A stretch of DNA of 64,000 nt. Origin: Planomonospora sp. ID67723. GTDB taxonomy: Bacteria > Actinomycetota > Actinomycetes > Streptosporangiales > Streptosporangiaceae. Position numbers and translations under genes: made by a program. Positions 8,836-61,288 of the stretch are shown here, piece after piece. The stretch lies in assembly GCF_015711605.1 (NCBI RefSeq), contig NZ_JABTEZ010000001.1, forward strand, positions 586,001 through 650,000, in the 5' to 3' direction. The first letter of the stretch is position 1; every line of letters begins with the position of its first letter. The notes below the pieces were generated by a model that saw nothing but the letters and a program-made list of their open reading frames with translations, made no database searches and had not been told where the DNA came from.

Positions 8836-8855
8836 ATTGGAGAGCGCTCTCCAAT
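8836..8855. promoter_or_regulatory. LacI-family operator, perfect 20-bp palindrome
   Basis: ATTGGAGAGCGCTCTCCAAT is fully symmetric and sits about 160 bp before the binding-protein start. It contains the same core as the site before the LacI-type gene and is the best candidate for the main operator of the transport operon. Confidence 0.88.
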
Positions 8856-30031: not shown

Positions 30032-30628
30032 TCAGCCGGTTCGGAGCGCCTCCAGCATCCGGCCCAGCGCGGCTCTGGTGGAGGCCAGGTCCTCGGGGCC
30101 GGTCACGGAGGACGCCAGCCAGAGAGCCGCCTCGTTCATCGCCCCCGACAGCAGGTGGACCAGCGGTGCGACCGGCTGCGGGGCTACGATCCCCGCGTCG
30201 ACGAGGGCGGCCAGCTCGTCGGCGAGGTGCCGGGTCGAGTTGGCCTCGTCCATCGCCCGCCACTGGCTCCATCCCAGTACGGCGGGCCCTTCGACGAGCA
30301 TGATCCGCTGGATCTCCGGATCGGCCGTCGCGGTGAGGAATTCCTGGCAACCGGCGGTCAGCCGGACCCAAGGATCGTCGTGGGCGTCGGCGGCCGCGGC
30401 CACGCGCCGGCCCACCTCCTGCTGCGACTCCTCCAGGACGGCGCGGAACAGGTCGGCCTTGCCGGTGAAGTGGTGGTACAGCGCGCCCTTGGTCACCCCC
30501 GCGGCCCGGACGATCTCCGCCAGGCCCACCGCACCGTAACCGCGCTCCGCGAACAGGCGCCTGCCCTCCCGCAGCAGAGTATGCCGGGTCCGCTCCCGCC
30601 GCTGTGCGCGGACTCCGTCTTCCCGCAT
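30032..30628 (-). CDS. TetR-family transcriptional repressor
   Basis: A 198-residue repressor. N-terminal HTH: LFAERGYGAVGLAEIVRAAGVTKGALYHHFTGKADLFRAVLEE. The C-terminal ligand-binding domain has many Trp and Ala, with no assignable ligand. The ATG at 30628 has AAGGGA upstream. Two palindromes directly upstream, shared with the divergent VOC gene, make it an autoregulated local repressor. Confidence 0.94.
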   Translation of the reverse strand: MREDGVRAQRRERTRHTLLREGRRLFAERGYGAVGLAEIVRAAGVTKGALYHHFTGKADLFRAVLEESQQEVGRRVAAAADAHDDPWVRLTAGCQEFLTATADPEIQRIMLVEGPAVLGWSQWRAMDEANSTRHLADELAALVDAGIVAPQPVAPLVHLLSGAMNEAALWLASSVTGPEDLASTRAALGRMLEALRTG

Positions 30629-30648
30629 CGCGTCCCTTCCCATTGACA

Positions 30649-30692
30649 TACCAGTGGTACGTGAATAACGTCCTTCGCATACCAATGGTATG
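30649..30692. promoter_or_regulatory. Paired TetR operators
   Basis: TACCAGTGGTA (30649-30659) and CATACCAATGGTATG (30678-30692) are perfect odd palindromes sharing the core TACCANTGGTA. Their centres are 31 bp apart, about three helical turns, and they fill the gap between the TetR and VOC start codons. Confidence 0.9.
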
Positions 30693-30709
30693 TGAAATGG
30701 AGTTCAGGC

Positions 30710-31126
30710 ATGAAGTTGACCGGCTTCTATCCGGTGATCTGCACGGCGAGGCTGCAGGAGTCCCACGACTTCTACACTCGGCTGCTGGGTTTCGAGACGA
30801 CGTTCGAGGCCGACTGGTACGTCAGCCTGCGGCGGCAGGGGAATCCCGGCTACGAGCTCGCCCTCCTCGACCCCACCCACCCGACGGTTCCGGAGGGCCG
30901 CGGGACTCCCGCGCAGGGCCTGCTGCTCAACTTCGAGGTGGAGGACGTGGACGCGGAATGGGACCGGCTCGTCGTCGGCGAAGGGCTGCGCCCCGTCCTC
31001 GGACTGCGCAGCGAGGACTTCGGGCAGCGGCACTTCATCGTGGCCGACCCCGGCGGAGTCCTGATCGACGTCATCACGCCCATCGCCCCCGCCGAGGAGT
31101 ACGCCGGGCAGTACGTCGGCCGGTGA
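30710..31126 (+). CDS. VOC (glyoxalase-like) family protein
   Basis: A 138-residue protein of two beta-alpha-beta-beta-beta modules: [36 protein letters not shown] and [19 protein letters not shown]...[18 protein letters not shown]. Members are dioxygenases, lyases or drug-binding resistance proteins. Control by a TetR repressor suggests that a small molecule sensed by that repressor is sequestered or modified. The ATG at 30710 has GGAG seven bases upstream. Confidence 0.88.
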
Positions 31127-31327: not shown

Positions 31328-31981
31328 TCAGGGGGCGTCGTCCGGGCGGGCGGCGAGGATGCGGGTGAGCAGGCCCGTGAGGCCGGCCCGTTCCTCCGCC
31401 TCCAGCGGTGAGAACCACTCCCGTTCCCTGCGAGTCTGCTCGGCGAACGCCTCACGGACGGCCGTCTCGCCCCTGGCGGTCAGCGCGATCTCCACCGCGC
31501 GCCTGTCGTCGGGCACGGGACGCCGCTCGACGAGGCCGTCACGTTCCAGGGTGTTGACCGCGTTGGTCATCGCCGAGCGGGACATGGTGGAGATCTCGGC
31601 GAGCCTGGCCGGCTGGGTCGGGCCGAGCAGCCAGAGCTTGAACATCAGGCGGAAGCCGGCGAGCGTCCAGCCGCGCGGGCGGTGGATGCGCGTCTCCAGG
31701 TCCGTGACGAGCAGGTAGGCCAGCTGGAGCAGGCTGTAGGCCAGCTCGAAGGCCTCCGGGTCGGCCGGCGGCGGCATGGCGGCCAGCCGCTCCCGGGCGT
31801 ACGCGGCGTACCGGAGGTCCGGCCTGTCCCCCGTCCGCGCCTCCCCCGTCCGCGTCTCCCCTGCCCCCGCCCTCTCCGTCCGCGTGCCCCCCGCGCCCAC
31901 GGCCGCCGGGCCCGACGGCCCACCCCCGGCCCGTGCGTGCGGGCCTCCGTCCGGCGGCTCCACCGCTTCCGCTGATTCCAC
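31328..31981 (-). CDS. MarR-family transcriptional regulator
   Basis: The MarR core (about 145 residues) is clear: ELAYSLLQLAYLLVTDLETRI, LAEISTMSRSAMTNAVNTLERDGLVERRPVPDDRRAVEIALTARG covers the winged HTH, and SPLEAEERAGLTGLLTRIL the dimer helix. An Arg/Thr/Gly/Ala-rich N-terminus of about 60 residues is unusual. The start is uncertain: I use the GTG at 31981, while an ATG at 32032 lies inside the operator. It is divergent from the FAD monooxygenase operon that it probably controls. Confidence 0.85.
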   Translation of the reverse strand: MESAEAVEPPDGGPHARAGGGPSGPAAVGAGGTRTERAGAGETRTGEARTGDRPDLRYAAYARERLAAMPPPADPEAFELAYSLLQLAYLLVTDLETRIHRPRGWTLAGFRLMFKLWLLGPTQPARLAEISTMSRSAMTNAVNTLERDGLVERRPVPDDRRAVEIALTARGETAVREAFAEQTRREREWFSPLEAEERAGLTGLLTRILAARPDDAP

Positions 31982-32018
31982 CGGGCAAGTCTTGCGCAGA
32001 GGACCTCGCCGCGTGGAT

Positions 32019-32038
32019 ATTGTTATGGCCATAACAAT
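32019..32038. promoter_or_regulatory. MarR operator, perfect 20-bp palindrome
   Basis: ATTGTTATGGCCATAACAAT is fully symmetric and AT-rich in a GC-rich setting. It lies 15 bp before the monooxygenase start codon and upstream of the divergent MarR gene, so binding should shut both promoters. Confidence 0.9.
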
Positions 32039-32053
32039 CCGAAGGAGGCCTCC

Positions 32054-33223
32054 GTGCGCATCGTCATCGCAGGTGGCGGCATCGGCGGACTGGCCGCCGC
32101 GCTCAGCCTGCACGCCGCCGGGTTCGGGGATGTGACCGTCCACGAGGCCGCGCAGGAGATCCGCCCGCTGGGCGTGGGCATCAACCTGCTGCCCCACGCG
32201 GTGCGGGAGCTGACCGAGCTCGGCCTCGCCGACCGGCTGGCGGGGATCGGCGTGGCCACGGCCGAGCTGGCCTACTTCAACCGGTACGGCGCGGCCATCT
32301 GGTCCGAACCCCGGGGCTTGGACGCGGGTTACGCCTGGCCGCAGTACTCCGTGCACCGGGGACGGCTGCAGATGCTGCTGCTGGAGGCCGTGGCCGAGCG
32401 GCTCGGCCCGCAGGCCGTACGGACCGGGAGCAGGATCACCGGCCCGGGGGACGAGGACCTGCTGATCGGCGCGGACGGGATCCACTCGGCGGTCCGGGCC
32501 CGCCTGTTCCCCGGAGAGGGGCCGCCGCCGTGGAACGGACTGGTCCTGTGGCGCGGCATGACCTACGGCGAGCCCTTCCTGACCGGGCGATCCATGATCA
32601 TGGCCGGGGACGGCACGCAGAAGTTCGTGGCCTACCCGATCGAGACGGGCGGGCGCACGCTGATCAACTGGATCGCCGAGCGTCCCCTGGACCGCGAGGC
32701 CCCGGACCGGGGCGACTGGAACCGCCCGGCGGATCTGGCCGAAATCGGCCGGCACTTCGCGGACTGGCGCTTCGACTGGCTGGACGTGCCCCGGATCATC
32801 GCCGGAGCCGAGACCGCCTACGAATACCCCATGGTCGACCGCGACCCCCTGCCGCGCTGGACCTTCGGCGATGTCACGCTGCTGGGCGACGCGGCCCACG
32901 CGATGTACCCGATCGGCTCCAACGGCGCCTCCCAGGCGATCATCGACGCCCGCGTGCTGGCCCACGCGCTCGCCCGCGGCGACCTGGCGGCCTACGAGGC
33001 GCTGCGGCGTCCGGCCACGACCGCCCTGCAACTGGCGAACCGGCAGATGGGACCGGAGGTCGTGATGAAGCTCGCCCACGAGCGCGCGCCGGACGGGTTC
33101 GACGACATCGAGCAGGTCATCCCCCACGCGGAGCGCGCCGAGATCGCCGCCTCCTACAAGCGCACCGCGGGGTTCGACCCGGCCTCGCTCAACGAGCACC
33201 CGTCCTGGAGCGTCACGCGATGA
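32054..33223 (+). CDS. FAD-dependent aromatic-ring monooxygenase (PHBH-like)
   Basis: A 389-residue class A flavoprotein hydroxylase. FAD-binding GxGxxG is in IVIAGGGIGGLAAALSLHAAG; the DG motif is LLIGADGIHSAVRARLF; the second FAD motif is LLGDAAHAMYPIGSNGASQAIID. The C-terminus lacks an extra domain, as in 3-hydroxybenzoate or salicylate hydroxylase relatives. The substrate is unknown. GTG start behind AAGGAGG. It overlaps the DUF3237 gene (ATGA). Confidence 0.92.
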   Translation: MRIVIAGGGIGGLAAALSLHAAGFGDVTVHEAAQEIRPLGVGINLLPHAVRELTELGLADRLAGIGVATAELAYFNRYGAAIWSEPRGLDAGYAWPQYSVHRGRLQMLLLEAVAERLGPQAVRTGSRITGPGDEDLLIGADGIHSAVRARLFPGEGPPPWNGLVLWRGMTYGEPFLTGRSMIMAGDGTQKFVAYPIETGGRTLINWIAERPLDREAPDRGDWNRPADLAEIGRHFADWRFDWLDVPRIIAGAETAYEYPMVDRDPLPRWTFGDVTLLGDAAHAMYPIGSNGASQAIIDARVLAHALARGDLAAYEALRRPATTALQLANRQMGPEVVMKLAHERAPDGFDDIEQVIPHAERAEIAASYKRTAGFDPASLNEHPSWSVTR

Positions 33224-33726
33224 GACCCGATCCGTCCCCGGAACCGTCCCCCGGATCGGGCCGGAGCGCCGCCCCCGTGAACCTCGAACCGCTCGCCACC
33301 TTCCACGTGGAACTCGACCCGATCCTCGACCTGGGGGACTCGCAGTGGGGCCGCCGCCGGGTGATCAACATCGTGGGCGGTTCGTTCGAGGGCCCCCGGC
33401 TGTCCGGCGCCGTCCTGCCCGGCGGGGCCGACTGGCAGGTCGTGCACCCCGACGGCATGGCCAGCATCGACACCCGCTACACGCTGCGCACCCACGACGG
33501 CGCCCACCTCTACATCTCCACCACCGGGGTACGGCACGGCTCCCGGGAGGTCCTCGACCGCCTGGCCCGGGGGGAACCGGTGGACCCGGCGGAGTACTAC
33601 TTCCGGCTGTTCTGCCGCTTCGAGACCGGCGACGACCGCTACCTGTGGCTCAACCGGACCCTCGCCGTGGCCTCCGGGGCCCGCACCGCCGACGCCGTCC
33701 GCTACGACGCCTACACCCTCACCTGA
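33220..33726 (+). CDS. DUF3237-family protein
   Basis: A 168-residue protein. After a Pro/Ser-rich 20-residue start, the DUF3237 barrel runs to the end: LATFHVELDPILDLG, GRRRVINIVGGSFEGPRLSGAVLPGGADWQVVHPDG, DTRYTLRTHDGAHLYISTTGVRHG, YYFRLFCRFETGDDRYLWLNR. The family often sits next to flavin monooxygenases and esterases in aromatic-compound loci; its activity is not established. ATG overlaps the monooxygenase stop. Confidence 0.88.
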   Translation: MRPDPSPEPSPGSGRSAAPVNLEPLATFHVELDPILDLGDSQWGRRRVINIVGGSFEGPRLSGAVLPGGADWQVVHPDGMASIDTRYTLRTHDGAHLYISTTGVRHGSREVLDRLARGEPVDPAEYYFRLFCRFETGDDRYLWLNRTLAVASGARTADAVRYDAYTLT

Positions 33727-33800
33727 TCAGCCCACACCCGTCCGACCGACCCCGCATCCCAGCGCCCTCGTTCCGCCCCCCTCCCCCTGAGGAACCCGCG

Positions 33801-35408
33801 ATGCCGAAGCTGAACCGCTCCCCGCTGCCCCTCACCGCCGAGCACGACGCCCCCATGACCATGCGGGACGGCACGGTCCTGCGCGGTGATCTCTACCGAC
33901 CGGCGGAGGGCGGGCCGTTCCCCACACTGCTGGTCCGCACGCCGTACGGCGAACCCACGTTCCGGATGATCCCGAAGATCCCCGCGCTGGAGGCCGGGTT
34001 CGCGGTCGTGCTCCAGCACTGCCGGGGACGCGGCAGCAGTGACGGCGAGTTCCGGCCGTGGCTGGACGAGGGCCCCGACGGCCACGACACCATCGCCTGG
34101 ATCACCGCGCAGCCGTGGTCGAACGGCGAGGTCGTGATGAGCGGCATGTCCTACCTGGCGGGATGCGCGCTCCAGGCGGCGGCGACGCGCCCGCCGGGGC
34201 TGAAGGCGGTGGTCGCCTCGATGACCCCGCACGACTTCCACGACGGCCTGAAGTACCACGGCGGGGCGTTCGCGCTGGGCTCGGCCCTGGGCTGGGGCGC
34301 GGCGCAGGCGCTGCTCGGGCTGCTGCACGGCATGGAGGCCGGTGAGGACGCCGCGAAGACGGGCGCAGGGTTCGGCGCGCTCCTGCCCGTGCTGGGCGAC
34401 CAGGCCACCGCGGCCCGCACCCTCCCGACGGGCGACATCCCCGGCATCCCGTGGTGGCGCGACTGGACCTCGCACCCGGAGCGCGACGCGTACTGGCAGG
34501 AACTCGCCGAGACCCTGCGGCACGACCGGATCGAGGTACCGGTCATGCACGTCGCGGGCTGGTTCGACCTGTTCCTGGCCGGGACGCTGGAGAACCACCG
34601 CCGCCTGGGCGGCCCGCTGGTCATCGGCCCCTGGTCCCACCTGGCACCGGGCGCCTCGGGCACCGGGCGGCTGGACTTCGGGTTCTCCGCCTCGGCGCAG
34701 GCGATCCGGCTGGAGAACCGGCAGCTGGCCTTCCTGAAGGGTGAGGACACCGGCCCCGCCGTGAAGATCTTCGTGATGGGCGACAACGTCTGGCGGGACG
34801 AGGAGGCCTGGCCGCCGGCCCGCGCGGTGGAGACCCGCTACCACTTCCACTCCGACGGCCTGCTGTCGCCCGCCGCCCCCGCGGCCACGGCTCCGTGCAC
34901 GTTCACCTTCGATCCCCGCGACCCCGTCCCGACGGTCGGCGGCCCGCTCCTGCTGCCCGACCCCACCAACGTCGGGCCCCAGGACCAGCGTGACGTCGAG
35001 CTCCGCTCGGACGTGCTCTGCTTCACCACCGACGTCCTCACCGAGGACATCGAGGTCACCGGGCCGGTGGCCGTGACACTGCACGCCTCCACCTCGGCGG
35101 CGGGCACCGACTGGACCGCGAAGCTGGTCGACGTGTATCCCGACGGCCGGGCCATGAGCGTGATCGACGGCATCGTCCGGGCCTCGGCGCCGTCCGGGGT
35201 CCACGAGATCGACCTCGTCGCCACCAGTCAGGTCTTCAAGGCCGGTCACCGCATCCGCGTCGAGATCTCCAGCTCCAACTTCCCCCGCTTCGACCGCAAC
35301 CCCGGCACCGGCGGCCCCTGCGCCGGGGCGACCGAGGCGGACCTGGTGGTGCAGCACCAGACCGTCTTCCCCGGCTCCTTCATCACCCTTCCGGTCATCC
35401 CCCGCTGA
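33801..35408 (+). CDS. CocE/NonD-family serine hydrolase
   Basis: A 535-residue alpha/beta hydrolase of the cocaine-esterase / X-Pro dipeptidyl-peptidase type. MTMRDGTVLRGDLYRP opens the fold; QHCRGRGSSDGEF is the oxyanion region; nucleophile Ser lies in SGMSYLAG; the Asp in GWFDLFL; the His in GPWSH. The C-terminal jelly roll (about 340-535) completes the family architecture. No signal peptide, so it is cytoplasmic. It follows DUF3237 by 74 bp, third in the MarR-controlled unit, and could cleave an ester or amide before or after ring hydroxylation. Confidence 0.93.
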   Translation: MPKLNRSPLPLTAEHDAPMTMRDGTVLRGDLYRPAEGGPFPTLLVRTPYGEPTFRMIPKIPALEAGFAVVLQHCRGRGSSDGEFRPWLDEGPDGHDTIAWITAQPWSNGEVVMSGMSYLAGCALQAAATRPPGLKAVVASMTPHDFHDGLKYHGGAFALGSALGWGAAQALLGLLHGMEAGEDAAKTGAGFGALLPVLGDQATAARTLPTGDIPGIPWWRDWTSHPERDAYWQELAETLRHDRIEVPVMHVAGWFDLFLAGTLENHRRLGGPLVIGPWSHLAPGASGTGRLDFGFSASAQAIRLENRQLAFLKGEDTGPAVKIFVMGDNVWRDEEAWPPARAVETRYHFHSDGLLSPAAPAATAPCTFTFDPRDPVPTVGGPLLLPDPTNVGPQDQRDVELRSDVLCFTTDVLTEDIEVTGPVAVTLHASTSAAGTDWTAKLVDVYPDGRAMSVIDGIVRASAPSGVHEIDLVATSQVFKAGHRIRVEISSSNFPRFDRNPGTGGPCAGATEADLVVQHQTVFPGSFITLPVIPR

Positions 35409-37645: not shown

Positions 37646-37695
37646 CCTCACCGTCACCTGAGAGCACCCGCAGCCGCCCTCAGGTGACGGTGAGG
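37646..37695. terminator. Perfect 17-bp inverted repeat at the kynU end
   Basis: Arms 37646-37662 and 37679-37695 pair perfectly around a 16-nt loop. The right arm contains the last codons and stop of kynureninase. It separates the convergent membrane-protein gene and the nine-gene kynurenine operon. Confidence 0.85.
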
Positions 37696-38924
37696 CGCTG
37701 CCGGTACCGCTCTTCGCGCCAGTGCTCCTTCTCCAGCACCTCCGCCAGCGTGACCGCCGCGTCGTAGACGTCGGCGAAGCGGATGTAGAGCGGGGCGAAG
37801 CCGAAGCGCAGGATGTCCGGGGCGCGGAAGTCGCCGTGCACGCCCCGGTCGATCAGGGCGCGCATCACCGGGTAGCCGTCGGGGTGGGTGAAGCTGACCT
37901 GGCTCCCGCGCCGCTCGGGGTCACGGGAGGAGGCGAGCGTGAGGCCGTACGGCGCGCAGAGCTCCTCGGCCAGGTCGATGAAGAGAGAGGTCAGCGCCAC
38001 GCTCTTGGCCCGCAGCACCGACAGGTCCACCCGCTCCCAGATGTCCAGCGAGGCGTTGAGCGCGGCGAAGGAGAGGACGTGCGGGGTGCTCACGGTGAAG
38101 CGCCGGATGCCGTCGGCCGGGCGGTAGCCGGGCTCGAACGCGAACGGCGCGGCGTGACCGTGCCAGCCGGTCAGCAGGTGCTCGGTCGCGTTCTGGTGGC
38201 GCGGATGGACGTAGATGAACGCCGGGGAGCCGGGGCCGCCGTTGAGGTACTTGTAGGTGCAGCCGACCGCGAAGTCCGCCGGGGACATGTCGACCTGGTA
38301 GGCGCCCGCGCTGTGGCAGAGGTCCCAGATCATCAGGGCCCCGGCCGCCTGCACCCGCGCGGTCACCCCGGCGGTGTCATGGCGGTCGCCGGTGCGGTAG
38401 TCGACCTCGGACAGCAGCACGCAGGCGACATCGCCGTCAGCGCCGTCTCCCAGCGCCTCGTCGAGGCCGTCGGTGCCGTTCACGTCGCGGATCTCGTAGT
38501 CGCCCAGCGCCTTGACCAGCCCCTGGACCATGTAGCGGTCGGTCGGGAAGTTCGCCAGGTCGGAGATGATCACCCGGCGGCCGGGGCGCAGGTTCAGCGC
38601 CGCCGAGACCGCCTTGACGATCGCGATGGAGGTGCTCTCGCCCACCACGACCTGGCCCGGCCCCGCGCCGATCAGCGGGGCGACCCGGTCGCCCGTGGTC
38701 TCCGGCAGGTCGAACCAGCCCGCGGTGTTCCATCCGCCGACCAGGCGTCCGGCCCACTCCTCCTCGACGACCCTGGCGAGCGCGGCCGAGGCGGCCTTGG
38801 GCGGGGCGCCCAGCGAGTTGCCGACGAGGTAGATCGTCCCTTCGGGGAGGACGAACTCGTCCCTGAAGTGCTTGAGAGGGTCGGCGGCGTCGAGCGCGAC
38901 GCAGTCCGCACGGCTGATTGTCAC
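37680..38924 (-). CDS. kynU: Kynureninase
   Basis: A 414-residue PLP enzyme that splits 3-hydroxykynurenine (or kynurenine) into 3-hydroxyanthranilate (or anthranilate) and alanine. PLP Lys lies in GCTYKYLNGGPGSPAFIYV; VLLSEVDYRTGDRHD and IWDLCHSAGAYQVDM carry cofactor-binding Asp and His. FALNA-type C-terminal blocks (GSQVSFTHPDGYPVMRALIDRGVHGDFR) fit the family and the length is normal. GTG start at 38924. It is last in the operon, 37 bp after the ACMSD gene. Confidence 0.95.
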   Translation of the reverse strand: MTISRADCVALDAADPLKHFRDEFVLPEGTIYLVGNSLGAPPKAASAALARVVEEEWAGRLVGGWNTAGWFDLPETTGDRVAPLIGAGPGQVVVGESTSIAIVKAVSAALNLRPGRRVIISDLANFPTDRYMVQGLVKALGDYEIRDVNGTDGLDEALGDGADGDVACVLLSEVDYRTGDRHDTAGVTARVQAAGALMIWDLCHSAGAYQVDMSPADFAVGCTYKYLNGGPGSPAFIYVHPRHQNATEHLLTGWHGHAAPFAFEPGYRPADGIRRFTVSTPHVLSFAALNASLDIWERVDLSVLRAKSVALTSLFIDLAEELCAPYGLTLASSRDPERRGSQVSFTHPDGYPVMRALIDRGVHGDFRAPDILRFGFAPLYIRFADVYDAAVTLAEVLEKEHWREERYRQRLTVT

Positions 38925-38961
38925 GAGTCGTCTCCGGAGTAGGTCCTTACCGATGACTCAA

Positions 38962-39969
38962 TCATCGGGCATGGGCGACGGGCGGGGCCTCACCGGGTGT
39001 GCGGCCGAGGAACCGCGCGGCGTTGCCGCCGAGCAGCTTGGCGCGGGCCGTACCGGAGAGGAACCCCGCCCCCCTGACCAGCGCGCCGACCGGTGACTCG
39101 CCCAGCGGGTAGGGGAAGTCGGAGCCGAGCATGACCCGGTCCTCACCCATCGTCTCCACCAGCAGCCGCAGCGCCCGCTCGTCGAACACCACCGAGTCGA
39201 CGCCGAACCGCTCCACGTAGCGCGACGGCGGCAGCTCGGAGACGCCGACCAGGTCGCTCCTGCGGTGCCAGGCGTTCTCGAACCGGCCCAGCCAGAAGGC
39301 GAACGAGCCGCCGCCGTGCGCGAAGCAGATCCGCAGCGACTCCGGCACCCGGTCGAAGACGCCGCCGAGGATCATCGCCAGCACCGACAGGTGGGTCTCG
39401 GCGGGCATGCCGACCAGCCACTGCGCCATCCAGCGCTCCAGGCGGGGACCGCCCGGCATGTCCCACGGATGGACGAAGACGGGCGCGCCCACGGCGGCGC
39501 AGTGCTGGAGGAACTGCACGACGCCCGCGTCGTCGAGGTCGCGGTCCCCGACGTGGTTGCCGATCTCGACGCCCGCATGCCCGGAGGCCAGGCAGCGGTC
39601 CAGCTCGGCGCAGGCCAGATCGGGATCCTGGAGCGGCACCTGGCAGAACGGGACCAGCCGCTCGTCCGCGCAGATCTCCAGGGCCAGGTCGTTGAAGATC
39701 TTCGACACCTGTACGGCCTGCGCCGCCGGGCGCTCGTAGGAGAAGAACACCGGGGTCGGCGAGACCACCTGCACGTCCACCCCGTCGGCGTCCATGGCCT
39801 CGATGCGGCGGGCCGGGTTCCAGCAGCCGTCCTGGATCCGGCGGAACTCCCGGTCGCCGAGGAGGATCATGGCCTCGCGCTCGGACTCCACCCGGAGCCG
39901 GGGGGCACCCGCCCACCCGAGCTCCGGCCAGCCCTTCGGGACGTGGTGGGTGTGCACGTCGACGATCAA
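38962..39969 (-). CDS. 2-amino-3-carboxymuconate-6-semialdehyde decarboxylase (ACMSD)
   Basis: A 335-residue amidohydrolase-fold decarboxylase that converts ACMS to 2-aminomuconate semialdehyde and so diverts it from quinolinate. Zinc ligands: HTHHVP near the start, His in VFVHPWD, His in CFAHGGG and Asp in GSDFPYPLG. WPELGWAGAPRLRVE and RRIEAMDADGVDVQVVSPTPVFFSY match the family. The start is TTG (39969) with AAGGGA upstream, three bases past the HAAO stop. Confidence 0.93.
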   Translation of the reverse strand: MIVDVHTHHVPKGWPELGWAGAPRLRVESEREAMILLGDREFRRIQDGCWNPARRIEAMDADGVDVQVVSPTPVFFSYERPAAQAVQVSKIFNDLALEICADERLVPFCQVPLQDPDLACAELDRCLASGHAGVEIGNHVGDRDLDDAGVVQFLQHCAAVGAPVFVHPWDMPGGPRLERWMAQWLVGMPAETHLSVLAMILGGVFDRVPESLRICFAHGGGSFAFWLGRFENAWHRRSDLVGVSELPPSRYVERFGVDSVVFDERALRLLVETMGEDRVMLGSDFPYPLGESPVGALVRGAGFLSGTARAKLLGGNAARFLGRTPGEAPPVAHAR

Positions 39970-39972
39970 GTG

Positions 39973-40488
39973 CTATCCCTTGCCCGGGTGGAGCGCGCCG
40001 CACTTCTCGCAGGTGCGGGCCTTCTCGTCGTCGTAGAACGCCTGGAAGATCGGGGGCAGGTCGGTCACGATGTCGCTGACCTGGAGTTCGACGTCGTGGA
40101 CCACGGAGTCGCACTCCTGGCAGTACCAGCGGAACCTCTCCAGCACCCCCTCCGGCCGGATGCGCTCCACCACCAGGCCGATCGAGCCCTCCTCCGGGCG
40201 CTGCGGCGAGTGCGGCGTGTTCGCAGGGAGCAGCCACATCTGTCCCTCGCGGACGTGCACGGTCTCCGGCCCGTCGGGGGTCATGATGTCGACGTGCATG
40301 TTCCCCCGGATCTGGTAGAAGAGCTCCTCGTAGGGGTCGATGTGGAAGTCGGTCCGCGCGTTCGGCCCACCGACGATCATCACGATGAAGTCGCCGGCCT
40401 CCTCGAAGAGGACCTTGTTGGCCACCGGCGGCTTGAGCAGGTGGGCGTGCTCGTCGATCCACGCGGTCAGGTCGATGGGAGCGATCAT
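39973..40488 (-). CDS. 3-hydroxyanthranilate 3,4-dioxygenase (HAAO)
   Basis: A 171-residue cupin that opens the ring of 3-hydroxyanthranilate to ACMS with Fe(II) and oxygen. Cupin ligands are in [24 protein letters not shown] and NTPHSPQRP. The C-terminus adds two CxxC motifs (CQECD and CEKCG) that form the rubredoxin-like second iron site known from bacterial HAAO. The ATG overlaps the upstream RidA-type stop (ATGA). Confidence 0.96.
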
Positions 40489-40913
40489 GGACTTTCCTCT
40501 CGGAGAGGCCGGTAGGCCACGGCCTGGATCTCGATGAGCAGGTGCGGGTGGGGCAACTGGTGAACCGCCACGGTGGTGCGGGCGGGGCCCGTCTCGTCGA
40601 AGTACTCGGCGTAGACCTTGTTGTACCCGCCGAAGTCGTTCATGTTCACCAGATAGGTGGTGACCTGGACGAGGTCGCGCAAGGAGGCCCCGGCGGCCTC
40701 GAGGATGTCGCCGATGTTCTCGATCACCGCCCGGGTCTGCTCGGCGATGTCGAGGGTGACGGTGCCGAACGCGTCGGCCTCCGCCCCGGCGATCGTGTTG
40801 TCCGGACGGCGGGCGCTGGTGCCGGAGACGTAGACGAGGTCCCCGGCCCGTTTGGCGTGCGGGAACCTCCCCCGCGGCACGGCCTTGCCCCCCACCACGA
40901 TCCCGTCGGTCAT
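40485..40913 (-). CDS. RidA-family 2-aminomuconate deaminase
   Basis: A 142-residue YjgF/RidA-fold protein: [82 protein letters not shown], and [24 protein letters not shown]. In 2-nitrobenzoate and tryptophan degradation a member of this family deaminates 2-aminomuconate, and the gene order here fits that role rather than general imine hydrolysis. Overlaps both neighbours by four bases. Confidence 0.9.
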
Positions 40914-41734
40914 GACGCCGCCTCCCCGCCTGCCGGCCCTGTCCCCCCGCCTGCCGGCCCTGTCTCCCCGCCTGCCGGCTCCGTGCCGAAGGAGACCCGG
41001 CCCAGGTGCTGGATCTCGACGCTGACGTGCGCCCCCGGGGCCAGCGGCTCGGCGGGCGTGGCGGCCCCGGCCAGCAGCACCCACCCGGGTTCGAGGACCA
41101 CGCCGTTCCGTACGGCGAGGCGCGCGGCTTCGGCGACCGCCCTGCGGGGATCGCCCAGGATGGCGGCCGTGGACCCGGTCCGCACGGGACGCCCGTCGAT
41201 CTCGAAGACGACGCCGAGGTTCCACCGGGTGGGGTCGTACGGTCGCCAGGGGCCGACGGCGTACCCTGCGGCCGAGGTGTTGTCGGCGACCACGTCCGGG
41301 AGCGAGAACCGGAAACGCTCGTAGCGCGAGTCGATAATCTCGATGCCCGGGGCGACGGCCGCGACGGCGTCCGGCGCGAGCGCGTCGGCGACCGAGGCGA
41401 TCCGCCGGCCGATCAGGTAGACGACCTCCGGCTCGACCCGGGGGTGGATGTACCCGGTGACCGGGATCGTGGCGCCGTCGGGAACGGCGGTGGAGGCGGT
41501 GACCCGGCCGAAGATGAGGTCGTGCACGCCCATCTGGCGGCGCTTGCCCTCGCTGGTGAAGCCCAGCTTCACCCCGGAAAGCCGGTCCCCCCGCCCCAGC
41601 CGCAGCCGCAGCAGCTCCTCCTGGACCCGGTAGGCGGTGGCCACGTCGTAGTCCTGCTCCGGCTGCGGCACGGCGCGGGCCGTACGGGCCGCCTCGTCCA
41701 GGATCTCGGCGAGCTTCCGGACGCCGGCGCTCAC
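40910..41734 (-). CDS. 4-oxalocrotonate decarboxylase
   Basis: A 274-residue member of the hydratase/decarboxylase family. [45 protein letters not shown] and [25 protein letters not shown] match the DmpH/XylI decarboxylase branch, which removes CO2 from 2-oxohex-3-enedioate. The last 24 residues are a 7-residue repeat (GPAGG) produced by three 21-bp DNA repeats and lie beyond the fold. Start is GTG overlapping the aldolase stop. Confidence 0.9.
40924..40984. repeat. Three 21-bp tandem repeats inside the decarboxylase C-terminus
   Basis: Units at 40924, 40945 and 40966 share CCCCGCCTGCCGGC; the first two match fully over 19 bases and the third has two changes. They encode the Gly-Pro-Ala-rich tail of the decarboxylase. 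Confidence 0.9.
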
Positions 41735-42762
41735 CGGCCCCCCTCCGCGCGAGCGCCGTCCCCGGCGCGGGCCAGGTCCAGTGCGATGTCCACGATCATG
41801 TCCTCCTGGCCGCCCACCATCCGGCGGCGGCCCGCCTCGCCCAGGATGTCCCGGGTGTCCACCCCGTACCTCGCCGAGGCGGCCTCGGCGTGCCGCAGGA
41901 AGCTGGAGTAGACCCCCGCGTAGCCCAGTGTCAGGGTCTCCCTGTCCACCCGGACCGGCCGGTCCTGCAACGGCCTGACCAGGTCGTCGGCCGCGTCCAT
42001 CAGGGCGTGCACGTCGCAGCCGTGCTCCCAGCCCATCAGGTCGGCCACCGCCGCGAACGCCTCCAGCGGGCAGTTGCCCGCACCCGCGCCCATCCCGGCC
42101 AGCGAGGCGTCCACCCGGGAGGCGCCGGCCTCCACCGCCACCACCGAGTTGGCCACGCCCAGCCCCAGGTTGTGGTGGGCGTGGATGCCGATCTCCGTGT
42201 CCTCGCCGAGGACCTCCCGGTAGGCCCGGACCCGGTCCCGGACCCCGTCCATGGTCAGCCTCCCGCCGGAGTCGGTCACGTAGACGCAGTGCGCGCCGTA
42301 CGACTCCATCAGCCCGGCCTGCTTCGCCAGCTCGGCGGGCTCGGCCATGTGCGACATCATCAGGAACCCGGCCACGTCCATGCCGAGCTCGCGCGCGGTC
42401 GCGATGTGCTGGGCGGAGATGTCGGCCTCGGTGCAGTGCGTGGCGACGCGGACCGAGGTGACGCCGAGCGCGTGGGCGCGCCGCAGGTCCGAGACGGTGC
42501 CGATGCCCGGCAGCAGCAGCGTCGTCAGCCTCGCCCGCCGTACGGCTCCCGCGACCGCCTCGATCCACTCGTCGTCGGTGTGCTCGCCCGCACCGTAGGT
42601 GAAGCTGCCCCCGGCGAGCCCGTCCCCGTGGGCGATCTCGACGGCCGCGACCCCGGCCGCGTCCAGCGCCGTCGCGATCGCGGCGGCCTGGGCGGTGGTG
42701 TAGCGGTGCCGGACGGCGTGCATGCCGTCCCGCAGGGTCACGTCCTGGACGTAGATCCTCAC
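41731..42762 (-). CDS. 4-hydroxy-2-oxovalerate aldolase
   Basis: A 343-residue DmpG/BphI-type class II aldolase giving pyruvate and acetaldehyde. [15 protein letters not shown] holds the catalytic Arg and metal Asp, [25 protein letters not shown] the metal His pair. Members form a complex with acetaldehyde dehydrogenase and channel acetaldehyde; here the partner gene overlaps upstream (GTGA). The length is normal. Confidence 0.96.
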
Positions 42763-43691
42763 GCGGTCGTCCTCCCCTCCGTGACCGGTGCGGCCGCCTC
42801 GGCGAGCCGCTCGGCGGTGCGCAGCGCGGCCGAGGTCATGATGTCCAGGTTCCCGGCGTAGGAGGGCAGGTAGTGGGCGGCGCCCTCGACCTCCAGGAAG
42901 ACGCTCACCTTGACCCCGCCGGTCCGCTCCCCGGTGGGCAGCGGCTCCCCCGCAGGGATCGCATCGAACTGCACGTCCTGCTTGAGCCGGTAGCCGGGCA
43001 CGTACGCCTGCACCTTCTCCACCATCTCCCGTACGGCTTCCGCCACCGCGGCCTCGTCGCACGCGTCCACCAGGCAGTAGACGGTGTCCCGCATGATCAG
43101 CGGCGGCTCGGCCGGGTTCAGGACGATGATCGCCTTTCCCCGGGCCGCCCCGCCGACCCGCTCGATCGCCCGGGAGGTCGTCTCGGTGAACTCGTCGATG
43201 TTGGCCCGGGTGCCGGGCCCGGCGGACCGCGAGGCGATCGAGGCCACGATCTCGGCGTACCGGACCGGGACCCGGGAGGCCACCGCCGCGACGATCGGGA
43301 TCGTCGCCTGCCCGCCGCAGGTGACCATGTTGAGGTTGGGCGCGCCGAGGTGGGCCTCCAGGTTGACCGGGGGCACGACGTACGGCCCGAGCGCGGCCGG
43401 GGTCAGATCGATCACCCGCTTGCCGTGCTCCCGCAGCACCCGGTCGTTGTGCCGGTGCGCCGCGGCCGAGGTCGCGTCGAGCACGACGTCCACGCCCGCG
43501 AACTCCGCCAGCCTCACCAGTCCCTCGACGCCCCCGGAGGTCGTGGCCAGCCCGCGCCGCCGGGCGCGGGCCAGGCCGTCGGAGCCGGGATCGACGCCCG
43601 CCACGGCGACGAGCTCGACCGTTCCGGAGAGCAGGGCCTTGAACATCAGGTCGGTCCCGATGTTCCCGGACCCGAGGATCGCGATTCTCAT
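42759..43691 (-). CDS. Acetaldehyde dehydrogenase (acetylating)
   Basis: A 310-residue DmpF/BphJ-type enzyme making acetyl-CoA from acetaldehyde, CoA and NAD. Cofactor motif [13 protein letters not shown]; catalytic Cys in [31 protein letters not shown] and [17 protein letters not shown] are family blocks. Directly coupled to the aldolase gene. The gap of 64 bp to the preceding hydratase gene is the longest inside the upper part of the operon. Confidence 0.96.
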
Positions 43692-43755
43692 TCGCCGCTC
43701 ACCGCTCGCCGCTCGTCCGCAGGCCGTCGGACGGTACCCGGACCGCGCGAGCCGC

Positions 43756-44553
43756 TCACTCGAACACCGCCCGCACCGAGCCGACCCCGTCCACGTGCGC
43801 CTCGAACACGTCACCGGGCTCGACCTCCACCACCGGGCCGAGCGCTCCGGTGAGCACGATGTCCCCGGCCCGAAGCGGGAAGTCCGTACCGGCCAGCGTG
43901 TCCGCCAGCCAGACGGCGGCGTTCAGCGGATGGCCCAGGCAGGCCGCGCCCGCGCCGGTGGAGACCTCCTGACCGCGCCGGCTCATGGTCATCCCGGCCA
44001 GCCTGAGGTCGAGGCCGGTCAGCGGGACCGGCGTGTTGCCGAGCACGAAGGCGCCGCTGGAGGCGTTGTCCGCGATCGTGTCCACGAGCGTGATGTCCCA
44101 TCCGGCGATCCGGCTGTCCACGATCTCGATCGCCGGCAGCACGAAATCCACCGCCCGGATGACGTCGGCCACCGTGAACGGCCCGTCCGTCAGGTCGCTC
44201 CGGAGCACCAGCGCGATCTCCGCCTCGGCCCTGGGCTGGAGGAAGCGCCCGGTCGGCACGGGCAGCCCGTCGAGGTAGGCCATGTCCGCGAACAGCATGC
44301 CGAAGTCCGGCCGGTCCACGCCGAGCTGGTCCCGAACCGCCTGCGAGGTCAGGCCGATCTTCCGGCCGACCGGCCGCCGCCCCTCGGCCAGCGCCCTGCG
44401 CGTGTTGATCTCCTGTACGGCGTAGCCGGCCTCCGCGGTCGGGCTCGGGAGCATCTCCCGGACCGGCGGGCAGGGCTTCCCGCTCCGTGCCGCCTCCAGT
44501 AGCCGGTCCGCCGCTTCGGCGAACACGTCGACGGCCTCGCTCCACTCAGTCAT
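43756..44553 (-). CDS. 2-keto-4-pentenoate hydratase
   Basis: A 265-residue MhpD-type hydratase that adds water to 2-hydroxypenta-2,4-dienoate. [33 protein letters not shown] and [17 protein letters not shown] are diagnostic of the hydratase branch, in contrast to the decarboxylase paralogue at 40910. [30 protein letters not shown] supplies the metal-site Glu and Asp. The first codons overlap the dehydrogenase gene by eight bases. Confidence 0.92.
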
Positions 44554-46000
44554 GTCCCGGCTCCAGCTTGATCGTGATGGTGGTCGGCTCGGAGTAGAAG
44601 TCCAGCGAGTGGGTGCCGCCCTCGCGCCCGATGCCGGAGAGCTTCACCCCGCCGAACGGGGTGCGCAGGTCCCGCAGGTACCAGGTGTTGACCCAGACCA
44701 GGCCCGTCTCCAGGGACTGGGCGACCCGGTGGGCGCGGCCGAGCGAGGACGTCCAGACCGTCGCGGCCAGGCCGTACTCGCTGTCGTTGGCCAGGGCGAC
44801 CGCCTCGGCCTCGGTGTCGAACGGCGCGACGTGGCAGACCGGGCCGAAGATCTCCTCCCGGTTCACCCGGGAGTCGTGCGGCAGGCCGGTGAGCACGGTC
44901 GGTTCGACGTAGTAGCCGCCGTCGCGCTCGTCCCCGAAGCGCGGCGCCCCGCCTCCCGCGTGGATCTCGGCGCCCTCGTCCCCGGCCAGCGCGTAGTAGG
45001 ACAGCACCTTGTCCCGGTGCTCCGCCGAGATCATCGGCATCATCACGGTGTCCTCGTCCTCGGGGCGGCCGAAGGCCAGCTCGCGTGCGCGCCCGGCCAG
45101 CCGCGCGACGAACTCCGCGAAGACCGGCCGCTCCACGTAGAGCCGCTCGGTGCACAGGCAGACCTGGCCGCCGTTGGTGAACACCGACCGCACGCAGCCC
45201 TCCACGGCCGCGTCCAGGTCGGCGTCGGCGAAGACCAGCCCGGCGTTCTTCCCGCCCAGCTCGAACGAGACCGGCTTGACCCGGTCCGCCACCGACTTCA
45301 TGATCGACGACCCGGTACGGCTCTCGCCGGTGAAGGTGACCGCGTCCACGCCCGGGTGCTCGACCAGGAACTGGCCGGTGGAGCCGGGGCCGAAGCCGTT
45401 GACGACGTTGAGCACGCCCGGCGGGAGTCCGATCGAGGCGGCGATCCCGGCCAGCACGGCCATCGAGCCCGGTGTGTGCTCGGAGGGCTTGACCACGACG
45501 GTGTTGCCCGCGGCGAGCGCGGGACCGATCTTCCAGGTGGCCAGCAGGAACGGCAGGTTCCAGGGGACGATGACCGCGACCACGCCGAGCGGCCTGCGCA
45601 CGGTGTAGCTGAGCACGTCCGCCAGGTGGAACGCGCTGTCCGGGCGCTGCGCGGCGATCTCGGCGAAGGAGCGGAAGTTGGCCGCGCCGCGGGGGATGTC
45701 CAGGGTGCGGGTCTGCGTGACCGACTTCCCGGTGTCCGCGATTTCCGCGGCGACCAGGTCCTCGAACCGCTCCTCGATCGCGTCGCCGAGCCGGCGCGTC
45801 CAGGCGGCCCGCTCGGCCGCCGGCAGCGCCGCCCAGCCGGGCAGGGCCGCGCGGGCGGCGGCGACCGCCCGGTCCACGACGTCCCGGTCCGCCTCGTGAA
45901 CCCGGTAGATCTGGCGCCCGGTCACCGGGTCGCAGGCGGCGAACGTCGCGCCCTCGGCGACCGGCACCCCACCGATGAAGTGGGTGACCTGGTCAGGCAA
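44546..46000 (-). CDS. 2-aminomuconate / 2-hydroxymuconate semialdehyde dehydrogenase
   Basis: A 484-residue aldehyde dehydrogenase. [32 protein letters not shown] binds NAD; Glu in [19 protein letters not shown] and Cys in [15 protein letters not shown] are catalytic. Operon context assigns aminomuconate semialdehyde as the substrate. I use a TTG start at 46000 because AGGAG lies five bases upstream and homology begins at once ([10 protein letters not shown]). It is the first gene of the nine-gene operon. Confidence 0.93.
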
Positions 46001-46026
46001 GGCTTCTCCTCGAAAAGAACCGCTCC

Positions 46027-46052
46027 GGCTCGTTACATACGGGTATAGAGCC
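46027..46052. promoter_or_regulatory. Candidate IclR operator
   Basis: An interrupted inverted repeat: GGCTC at 46027-46031 with GAGCC at 46048-46052, plus inner TAC/GTA. It sits in the 73-bp gap between the divergent dehydrogenase and IclR genes, so it must overlap at least one promoter. Confidence 0.5.
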
Positions 46053-46073
46053 GCAAGCCGCCGATGGGCAACA

Positions 46074-46847
46074 ATGCGTTCCGTGCCACGGAACCCCGAC
46101 CGTCTCTCGATGCTGGAGAAGTCCTGGCTCGTGCTGGACGCGTTCCGCCCCACGGGAGGACCGCTCCGCCTGGCCGACGTCGCCGAGCGCTGTCATCTTC
46201 CCAAGACCACCGCCTTCCGCCTGCTCACCGAGCTCACCGCGATCGGCGCGGTCGCCCGCCGCCAGGACGGCTACTACCTCGGCCGCAGGCTCTTCGAGCT
46301 CGGTTGCATCGTCCCCCTGGAGCGCGATCTCCGCCATGCCGCGCTGCCGTTCATGCACGACCTGTACGAGGCGACCCACGAGACCGTGCACCTCGGCGTG
46401 CGTGACGGCCTCGACGTCGTCTACGTGGAGAAGATCCGCGGCCAGGAGGCCTTCGCCCTGCCCTCCCGGGTCGGCGGCCGGCTTCCCCTCACCTGCACCG
46501 GGATCGGCAAGGCCCTGCTCGCCTACGCGGGCCCCGACCTCATCGAGGAGGTCCTCGGCCGGCCGCTGCGCCGCCTGACCCCGCACTCGATCGTCGACCC
46601 CCGGCGGCTGGAGGAGGCCATCGGCCAGATCCAGGCGGCGGGGCTGGCCTACGAACGCGAGGAGGCGCAAATCGGCGGCGCCTGCATCGCGGCCCCGGTG
46701 TTCCACGAGGGAGCCGCGGTGGCGGCCCTGTCCGTCTCGGTCCCCCTGCCCCGCTTCCACCCCACCCGCCTGGCCCCCGCCGTCAAGGCCGCCGCCCTGG
46801 GCATCTCCCGCGCCCTGTCCCGCCCCTTCCCGGCCGGTCCCGTCTGA
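46074..46847 (+). CDS. IclR-family regulator of the kynurenine operon
   Basis: A 257-residue regulator. The winged HTH covers about residues 14-75 (LRLADVAERCHLPKTTAFRLLTELTAIGAVARRQDGYYLG). The C-terminal GAF-like effector domain carries ETVHLGVRDGLDVVYVEKIRG, LPLTCTGIGKALLAY and a YEREEAQIGGACIAAPVF signature. Divergent from the nine-gene operon across 73 bp, so it very likely controls it with a kynurenine-pathway acid as ligand. The start is uncertain: ATG 46074, or GTG 46083. Confidence 0.92.
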   Translation: MRSVPRNPDRLSMLEKSWLVLDAFRPTGGPLRLADVAERCHLPKTTAFRLLTELTAIGAVARRQDGYYLGRRLFELGCIVPLERDLRHAALPFMHDLYEATHETVHLGVRDGLDVVYVEKIRGQEAFALPSRVGGRLPLTCTGIGKALLAYAGPDLIEEVLGRPLRRLTPHSIVDPRRLEEAIGQIQAAGLAYEREEAQIGGACIAAPVFHEGAAVAALSVSVPLPRFHPTRLAPAVKAAALGISRALSRPFPAGPV

Positions 46848-61262: not shown

Positions 61263-61288
61263 CCCGCCCGCGGCATGCCGCGGGCGGG
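61263..61288 (+). terminator. Terminator of the MerR-thioredoxin operon
   Basis: A 26-bp perfect palindrome with 13-base arms (CCCGCCCGCGGCA in the first arm), 24 bp after the thioredoxin stop. Confidence 0.88.

Follow-up and report, generated by a model that had tools for sequence, protein, structure and literature searches.

Planomonospora sp. ID67723 carries, at positions 31328-35408 of the 64-kb stretch of DNA analysed here (the window), a compact gene cassette in which a divergent MarR-family regulator gene is followed by a tight operon encoding a flavin adenine dinucleotide (FAD) monooxygenase of group A (FMO), a DUF3237 protein, and a hydrolase of the CocE type. This FMO/DUF3237/CocE cassette is real and selected. 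With a confidence only a little above even, we interpret it as a MarR-repressed, stand-alone catabolic module for an aromatic (aryl) ester or amide. The boundaries given in the original prediction span the region from MarR to CocE exactly, and every gene it named (MarR, FAD monooxygenase, DUF3237, and CocE-hydrolase) was found, with Pfam or NCBIfam cut-offs exceeded. No description of the FMO-DUF3237-CocE combination was found in the open-access papers searched. Every part of it belongs to a known family, and the logic of a MarR regulator with an aromatic hydrolase and an oxygenase is familiar.

The linkage of these genes was followed in the best 80 of 427 DUF3237 relatives obtained by a DUF3237 alignment search, with partner genes located by tblastn; around some of these loci, which are cited here by L numbers, the gene calls are simple open-frame heuristics. 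An FMO gene adjoins the DUF3237 gene at 33 of the 80 loci, accompanied by MarR in 31 and by CocE in 25 of the 33. Locus L085, in which only the last 39 FMO codons are retained before DUF3237, is excluded from the 33, though labelled as FMO-linked in the tree described below; in L056, the FMO frame holds one stop, and both cases are read as FMO decay in single species. The outer neighbours of the cassette vary between genera, which indicates that it is autonomous.

Because the 80 loci are not independent (the genomes are related, with several species per genus), linkage was also sought outside the orthologous group. A class-wide FMO search (296 genomes, E up to 1e-60) gave 28 matches, six of which are the cassette itself. 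Among the other 22, a DUF3237 gene lies within 1.5 kb in three, and one was present in four of the 12 regions that were extended; by a rough hand estimate, based on 28 matches in 149 genomes of ~7 Mb, chance would place about 0.002 such neighbours among 22 loci of ~4 kb. At L163, FMO, CocE, and DUF3237 stand in a row, with identities of 55%, 35%, and 46%, respectively, and CocE is confirmed by Pfam. L160 and L161 each have two different DUF3237 genes flanking one FMO gene (DUF3237-FMO-DUF3237), as if two barrels acted on one product, and at L162, FMO and DUF3237 have genes for an amidohydrolase and a transporter of the oligopeptide type in their vicinity. CocE and DUF3237 also occur together without FMO: L080 has only these two genes, and at L099, a 36% identical CocE is encoded just 5' of DUF3237. 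A second DUF3237 gene of the same Planomonospora genome (L048, ~707906-711376 of contig C5) directly follows another CocE gene inside an oligopeptide-type ABC transporter operon (SBP_bac_5/permease/ABC), and a similar DUF3237-CocE pair is present in a congener (L049).

The DUF3237 tree comprises 105 proteins. Its FMO-linked members require 10 label changes, at least six of them forced by well-supported branches, versus a mean of 33 after shuffling. They are clustered but do not form one clade; the diverged linked proteins fall into separate clades, and one DUF3237 protein each of L160 and L161 groups with L048, L049 (both CocE-linked), and L050. The deep joins and long branches of this tree are unsure, and its bootstrap is not quite settled. 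The scatter in the tree and the diverged linkages together indicate that the association of these families arose, or was kept, more than once. Co-occurrence of the three families had been set beforehand as a check of the original prediction, and it is borne out both by the orthologous cassette and by the diverged L163 operon, where the genes stand in another order.

The regulator matches the MarR domain PF01047 with 48.6 bits (Pfam cut-off 24.6), and its orthologues in the cassettes are 55-89% identical. Its conserved part starts near 'YAAYAR' (~31810), while its N-terminal extension (31800-31900, minus strand) is a degenerate Arg-Thr-Gly-Glu stretch, unconserved among relatives, and the true start may differ. 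The 20-bp palindrome announced by the original prediction, ATTGTTATGGCCATAACAAT, is exact; it ends 15 bases 5' of the GTG codon of FMO, directly before the ribosome-binding site. Three perfect 20-bp palindromes are present in the window, against a mean of 0.42 in 60 letter shuffles, and length alone is not decisive; conservation is. The FMO start can be read in 34 rows, the window and 33 loci; scored by the best match to the 18-base core TTGTTACGGCCATAACAA, 30 of these FMO upstream regions keep 15-18 of the 18 positions. The match drops to 13 of 18 in two rows where MarR is further diverged as well, L078 (55%) and L084 (63%), and the core is missing from L077 and L086; these rows, and no others, lack a MarR gene. 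Even when three mismatches are allowed, the whole 8.3-Mb genome has no second copy of the operator. Since the core is kept wherever MarR is kept, is lost without MarR, and occurs at a single genomic site, its pattern is that of a dedicated regulator with one target, and MarR would be the protein that binds it. The palindrome that was predicted to govern the three genes thus behaves, as far as sequence conservation goes, as a dedicated operator.

The other two perfect 20-bp palindromes of the window are ATTGGAGAGCGCTCTCCAAT (8836-8855) and GCCCGCGGCATGCCGCGGGC (61266-61285). Just 5' of the likely marR start lies an 11-bp inverted repeat, GCAAGTCTTGC (31985-31995); CAAGTCTTG is found likewise there in L031-L034, among seven regions compared, and the repeat perhaps belongs to the marR promoter. 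On the other side of the operator, the DUF3237 ATG overlaps the FMO stop codon as ATGA, and only 74 bases separate DUF3237 from CocE, which makes a single FMO-DUF3237-CocE transcript likely. The next gene 3' of CocE is a convergent LysE gene, and the operon contains FMO, DUF3237, and CocE only (Table 1).

Table 1. Genes and regulatory elements of the cassette, in window coordinates.
Feature	Position	Strand	Basis
MarR-family repressor gene, divergent; start GTG 31981 or 31963 (uncertain)	31328..31981	-	Pfam PF01047
Putative operator, perfect 20-bp palindrome ATTGTTATGGCCATAACAAT; consensus core TTGTTAYGGCCRTAACAA	32019..32038	.	Sequence and conservation
Ribosome-binding site AAGGAGG of FMO	32042..32048	+	Sequence
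Group A FAD monooxygenase (FMO), NF005720/PRK07538 family, PhzS-like	32054..33223	+	NCBIfam, PDB 2rgj/3c96
DUF3237 beta-barrel protein; start ATG 33220 or GTG 33277	33220..33726	+	PF11578, model, PDB 4pux and 3c5o
CocE/NonD-family serine hydrolase (Peptidase_S15 and PepX_C)	33801..35408	+	TIGR00976, cocaine esterase match

The FMO matches NF005720 (PRK07538, group A flavin monooxygenase) with 560.3 bits, above the NCBIfam cut-off of 400. The motifs GxGxxG, DG, and GD are present as GGGIGG, GADGIHS, and GDAAHAMYP, which we take to serve in FAD binding, and they are invariant or nearly so, where covered, across 17 aligned cassette proteins. By far the best PDB matches are 2rgj/3c96 (326 bits, E ~1e-96), aligned over almost the entire length, with a difference in the segment before the second FAD motif, which is ~20 residues shorter in the window FMO; the next match, tropone 2-monooxygenase, reaches 120 bits. 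These two structures are of PhzS, the phenazine hydroxylase (5-methylphenazine-1-carboxylate hydroxylase) of Pseudomonas aeruginosa. By its family, the window FMO would act on an aromatic substrate.

The DUF3237 protein matches PF11578 with 177 bits (Pfam cut-off 24). Its predicted structure, with a predicted local distance difference test score (pLDDT) of 92, is closest in fold to 3c5o (Z 25.8) and 4pux (Z 23.3), followed by the fungal protein PhnH (6jjs). More distant fold neighbours (Z 9 to 10) include Diels-Alderases, dirigent proteins, allene oxide cyclases, and pyocyanin demethylase (Z 9.9). The modelled fold is a common barrel, and fold alone tells no function. Invariant residues in 33 aligned relatives include, among others, R46, R47, GGADWQ (68-73), D78, G79, R86, Y126, R129, and E135. 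A phenazine-type substrate for FMO and DUF3237 would be a weak proposal, drawn from the phenazine substrate of PhzS and from the pyocyanin demethylase match, which is level with the other barrels.

The original prediction described DUF3237 as a family without proven activity, a statement that is out of date. PinX is reported to carry a DUF3237 domain and to have identities of 42% to PhcG and 38% to PhcF, both decarboxylases, and deletion of pinX leads to accumulation of lariciresinoate (PMC12607616). In lignin-dimer catabolism, PhcF, PhcG, and PinX act on phenolic cyclic ethers, losing CO2 (PMC12607616, PMC12997858). These decarboxylases introduce a double bond, with a quinone methide as the likely intermediate of the PhcF/PhcG reaction, and PinX also opens the furan ring (PMC12997858). 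Their likeness to the window protein is one of description, through the DUF3237 domain of PinX and the homology of PhcG and PhcF (PMC12607616); as described there, their pathways use oxidases and lignostilbene dioxygenases (PMC12607616, PMC12997858), whereas the window cassette has a PhzS-like FMO. The fungal DUF3237 homologue PhnH is reported to catalyse hydroalkoxylation (PMC8704240).

PhnH shares the modelled fold of the window protein (Z 19.4 over 129 residues, 2.1 A) and matches it weakly in sequence (E 1e-5, ~22% identity); it is, however, fungal and biosynthetic, and the GGADWQ motif is not kept in it. This kinship, together with the presence of fungal biosynthetic monooxygenases, at low similarity, among the FMO relatives, could point to natural-product tailoring, in which FMO and DUF3237 would make or close a ring, as PhnH does in fungal phenalenone biosynthesis. 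We consider such a role improbable: the constant company of the FMO-DUF3237 pair is MarR and usually CocE, and a scan of neighbouring genes turned up no core enzyme of biosynthesis. The reading of the locus as part of a biosynthetic cluster was dropped because the outer neighbours change between genera.

The hydrolase matches TIGR00976 (CocE/NonD) with 392 bits (NCBIfam cut-off 66.3), and its nearest solved structure is cocaine esterase (PDB 1ju3 and mutants; E 4e-92), of the same family. The segments GMSYLAG, AGWFD, and GPWSH align with the Ser, Asp, and His of cocaine esterase that we take to be catalytic, and the position of the oxyanion tyrosine aligns as well, whereas one of the tryptophans presumably lining the benzoyl pocket of cocaine esterase is not kept in the window protein.

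Among the DUF3237 relatives whose pathway context is known, the closest one (54% identity to the window protein) is encoded on the Acinetobacter indicus plasmid pAI01 (NZ_CP044019) and is very similar to the protein whose structure is 4pux (352 bits, 159 residues). Its gene is surrounded by those for MarR, a transporter, p-hydroxycinnamoyl-CoA (coenzyme A) hydratase/lyase, aldehyde dehydrogenase, feruloyl-CoA synthase, acyl-CoA dehydrogenase, a porin, a thioesterase, and a tannase/feruloyl esterase. We take this to be the hca operon, in which HcaR is the MarR repressor and HcaG the esterase; none of the papers found confirms what its DUF3237 gene is called. Like the window cassette, this hydroxycinnamate operon combines a MarR-type regulator, an aromatic-ester hydrolase, and DUF3237. 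It differs in lacking FMO, in having a CoA ligase, a hydratase/lyase, an acyl-CoA dehydrogenase, and a porin, and in its esterase, which is of the tannase/feruloyl type and not CocE. Neither a CoA ligase nor a hydratase/lyase, by which an hca-type operon would be recognised, occurs in the FMO-DUF3237-CocE operon. Elsewhere, Alphaproteobacterial DUF3237 genes adjoin genes for enoyl-CoA hydratase, AMP-ligase, thiolase, and CoA-transferase. At L113, L107, and similar Alphaproteobacterial loci, DUF3237 lies within a conserved CoA-ester operon that also contains an MTHFR-like gene and encodes a ~490-aa protein lacking a Pfam match.

With cocaine esterase as the nearest structure of the hydrolase and a DUF3237 gene in a hydroxycinnamate operon, the aromatic ester or amide named in the original prediction is plausible as the substrate class, tempered by the cassettes that lack CocE and by an FMO whose preference for aromatic compounds is deduced from its family. 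In the mechanism that we propose, MarR bound to the single palindrome would repress its own gene and the FMO-DUF3237-CocE operon, as the conservation of the operator suggests, and an aromatic ligand would release it. CocE, with its family and catalytic residues in support, would hydrolyse an aryl ester or amide to an aromatic acid or phenol, which the PhzS-like FMO may then hydroxylate, possibly with loss of a carboxylate. Because of the activities of PinX, PhcF, PhcG, and PhnH, the DUF3237 protein is expected, by analogy, to carry out an acid-base step on the hydroxylated product, such as decarboxylation, opening or closing of a cyclic ether, or tautomerisation.

Several observations weigh against this interpretation. 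Eight of the 33 FMO-DUF3237 cassettes have no CocE (L062, L063, L066, L073, L077, L078, L084, and L086; two in Streptomyces, one in Kitasatospora, two in Streptacidiphilus, two in Nonomuraea, and one in Actinomadura), so the pathway does not have to begin with an ester. Within the operon, a ring-cleavage or CoA-ligase gene is absent, so that the operon alone would not provide a complete pathway. Eight of the 12 extended loci with a diverged FMO (46-60% identical) show no DUF3237 within the 10-15 kb covered. Betaproteobacterial DUF3237 genes sit in housekeeping synteny, and that of L111 is found near TldD, molybdopterin-binding, and thymidylate synthase genes; the housekeeping synteny of some members implies that the family is not always catabolic. 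The Betaproteobacterial contexts were dropped as evidence on account of this synteny.

A small, self-regulated unit whose operon is without ring-cleavage genes could also serve in detoxification, where FMO would modify a toxic aromatic compound (a plant phenol, quinone, phenazine, or aromatic antibiotic) and DUF3237 would resolve the unstable product, the carbon being unused for growth. Both the patchy distribution of the cassette, in which sequences from different families are highly similar (79-83% identity for FMO in the five Streptomycetaceae loci), and the presumed identity of the nearest solved FMO as a phenazine hydroxylase are in line with such a function. However, uptake and use are suggested by the CocE partner and by the recurrence of ABC transporter genes of the oligopeptide type close to related genes (L048, L078, and L162), and other DUF3237 operons hold CoA ligase, thiolase, and enoyl-CoA hydratase genes. 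Detoxification is an explanation that we regard as unlikely, though it retains appreciable weight.

Returning to the catabolic module, FMO and DUF3237 stay paired in the absence of CocE, and the hydrolase partner of DUF3237 varies (CocE; an amidohydrolase in L092 and L162; the feruloyl esterase in Acinetobacter), so we take FMO and DUF3237 to be the fixed core and the hydrolase an interchangeable entry step. A more specific and rather speculative proposal, in which we place little confidence, is that FMO and DUF3237 form a two-step unit, assembled more than once, in which a reactive hydroxylated or dearomatised product of FMO would at once be decarboxylated, or cyclised or opened, by DUF3237. 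Such a unit, entered through exchangeable hydrolases, would be a bacterial catabolic counterpart of PhnH chemistry.

The cassette has two regulated gene groups nearby. On the minus strand, at 37680-46153, lies a 3-hydroxyanthranilate meta-cleavage set with an IclR-type regulator, comprising kynureninase, an amidohydrolase (ACMSD-like), 3-hydroxyanthranilate dioxygenase, a Rid protein, a decarboxylase, an aldolase, acetaldehyde dehydrogenase, and hydroxymuconic semialdehyde dehydrogenase. Its position 2-11 kb downstream, and the occurrence of kynureninase near the cassette in seven of the 80 loci, would allow the FMO to be a kynurenine-type monooxygenase of this kynureninase pathway. The link is nevertheless seen only in Planobispora, Planomonospora, and one Streptosporangium, 26 of the 33 FMO cassettes have no kynureninase in the flank covered, and no kynurenine monooxygenase appears among the 38 PDB matches of the FMO or among the 25 of its 43 NCBIfam matches listed. 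We hold this assignment to be very improbable, and the connection with the 3-hydroxyanthranilate cluster was dropped as lineage-bound synteny. On the other flank, at 30032-31126, a TetR gene and a divergent glyoxalase-fold (VOC) gene form a second small self-regulated pair, with two copies of the palindrome CATACCANTGGTANG (30647-30661 and 30678-30692) in their spacer.

Soil actinobacteria probably keep the cassette to take apart a plant-type aromatic ester. DUF3237 is a widespread family, most of it without an assigned role, and one of its branches is connected through this cassette with a named pair of enzymes and with a clean regulator that has a single target. The motif of the operator has the exactness needed for regulon searches in any genome; with the MarR-operator pair, the pathway could be identified, and a second kind of chemistry, linked to an oxygenase, could be assigned to the barrel.

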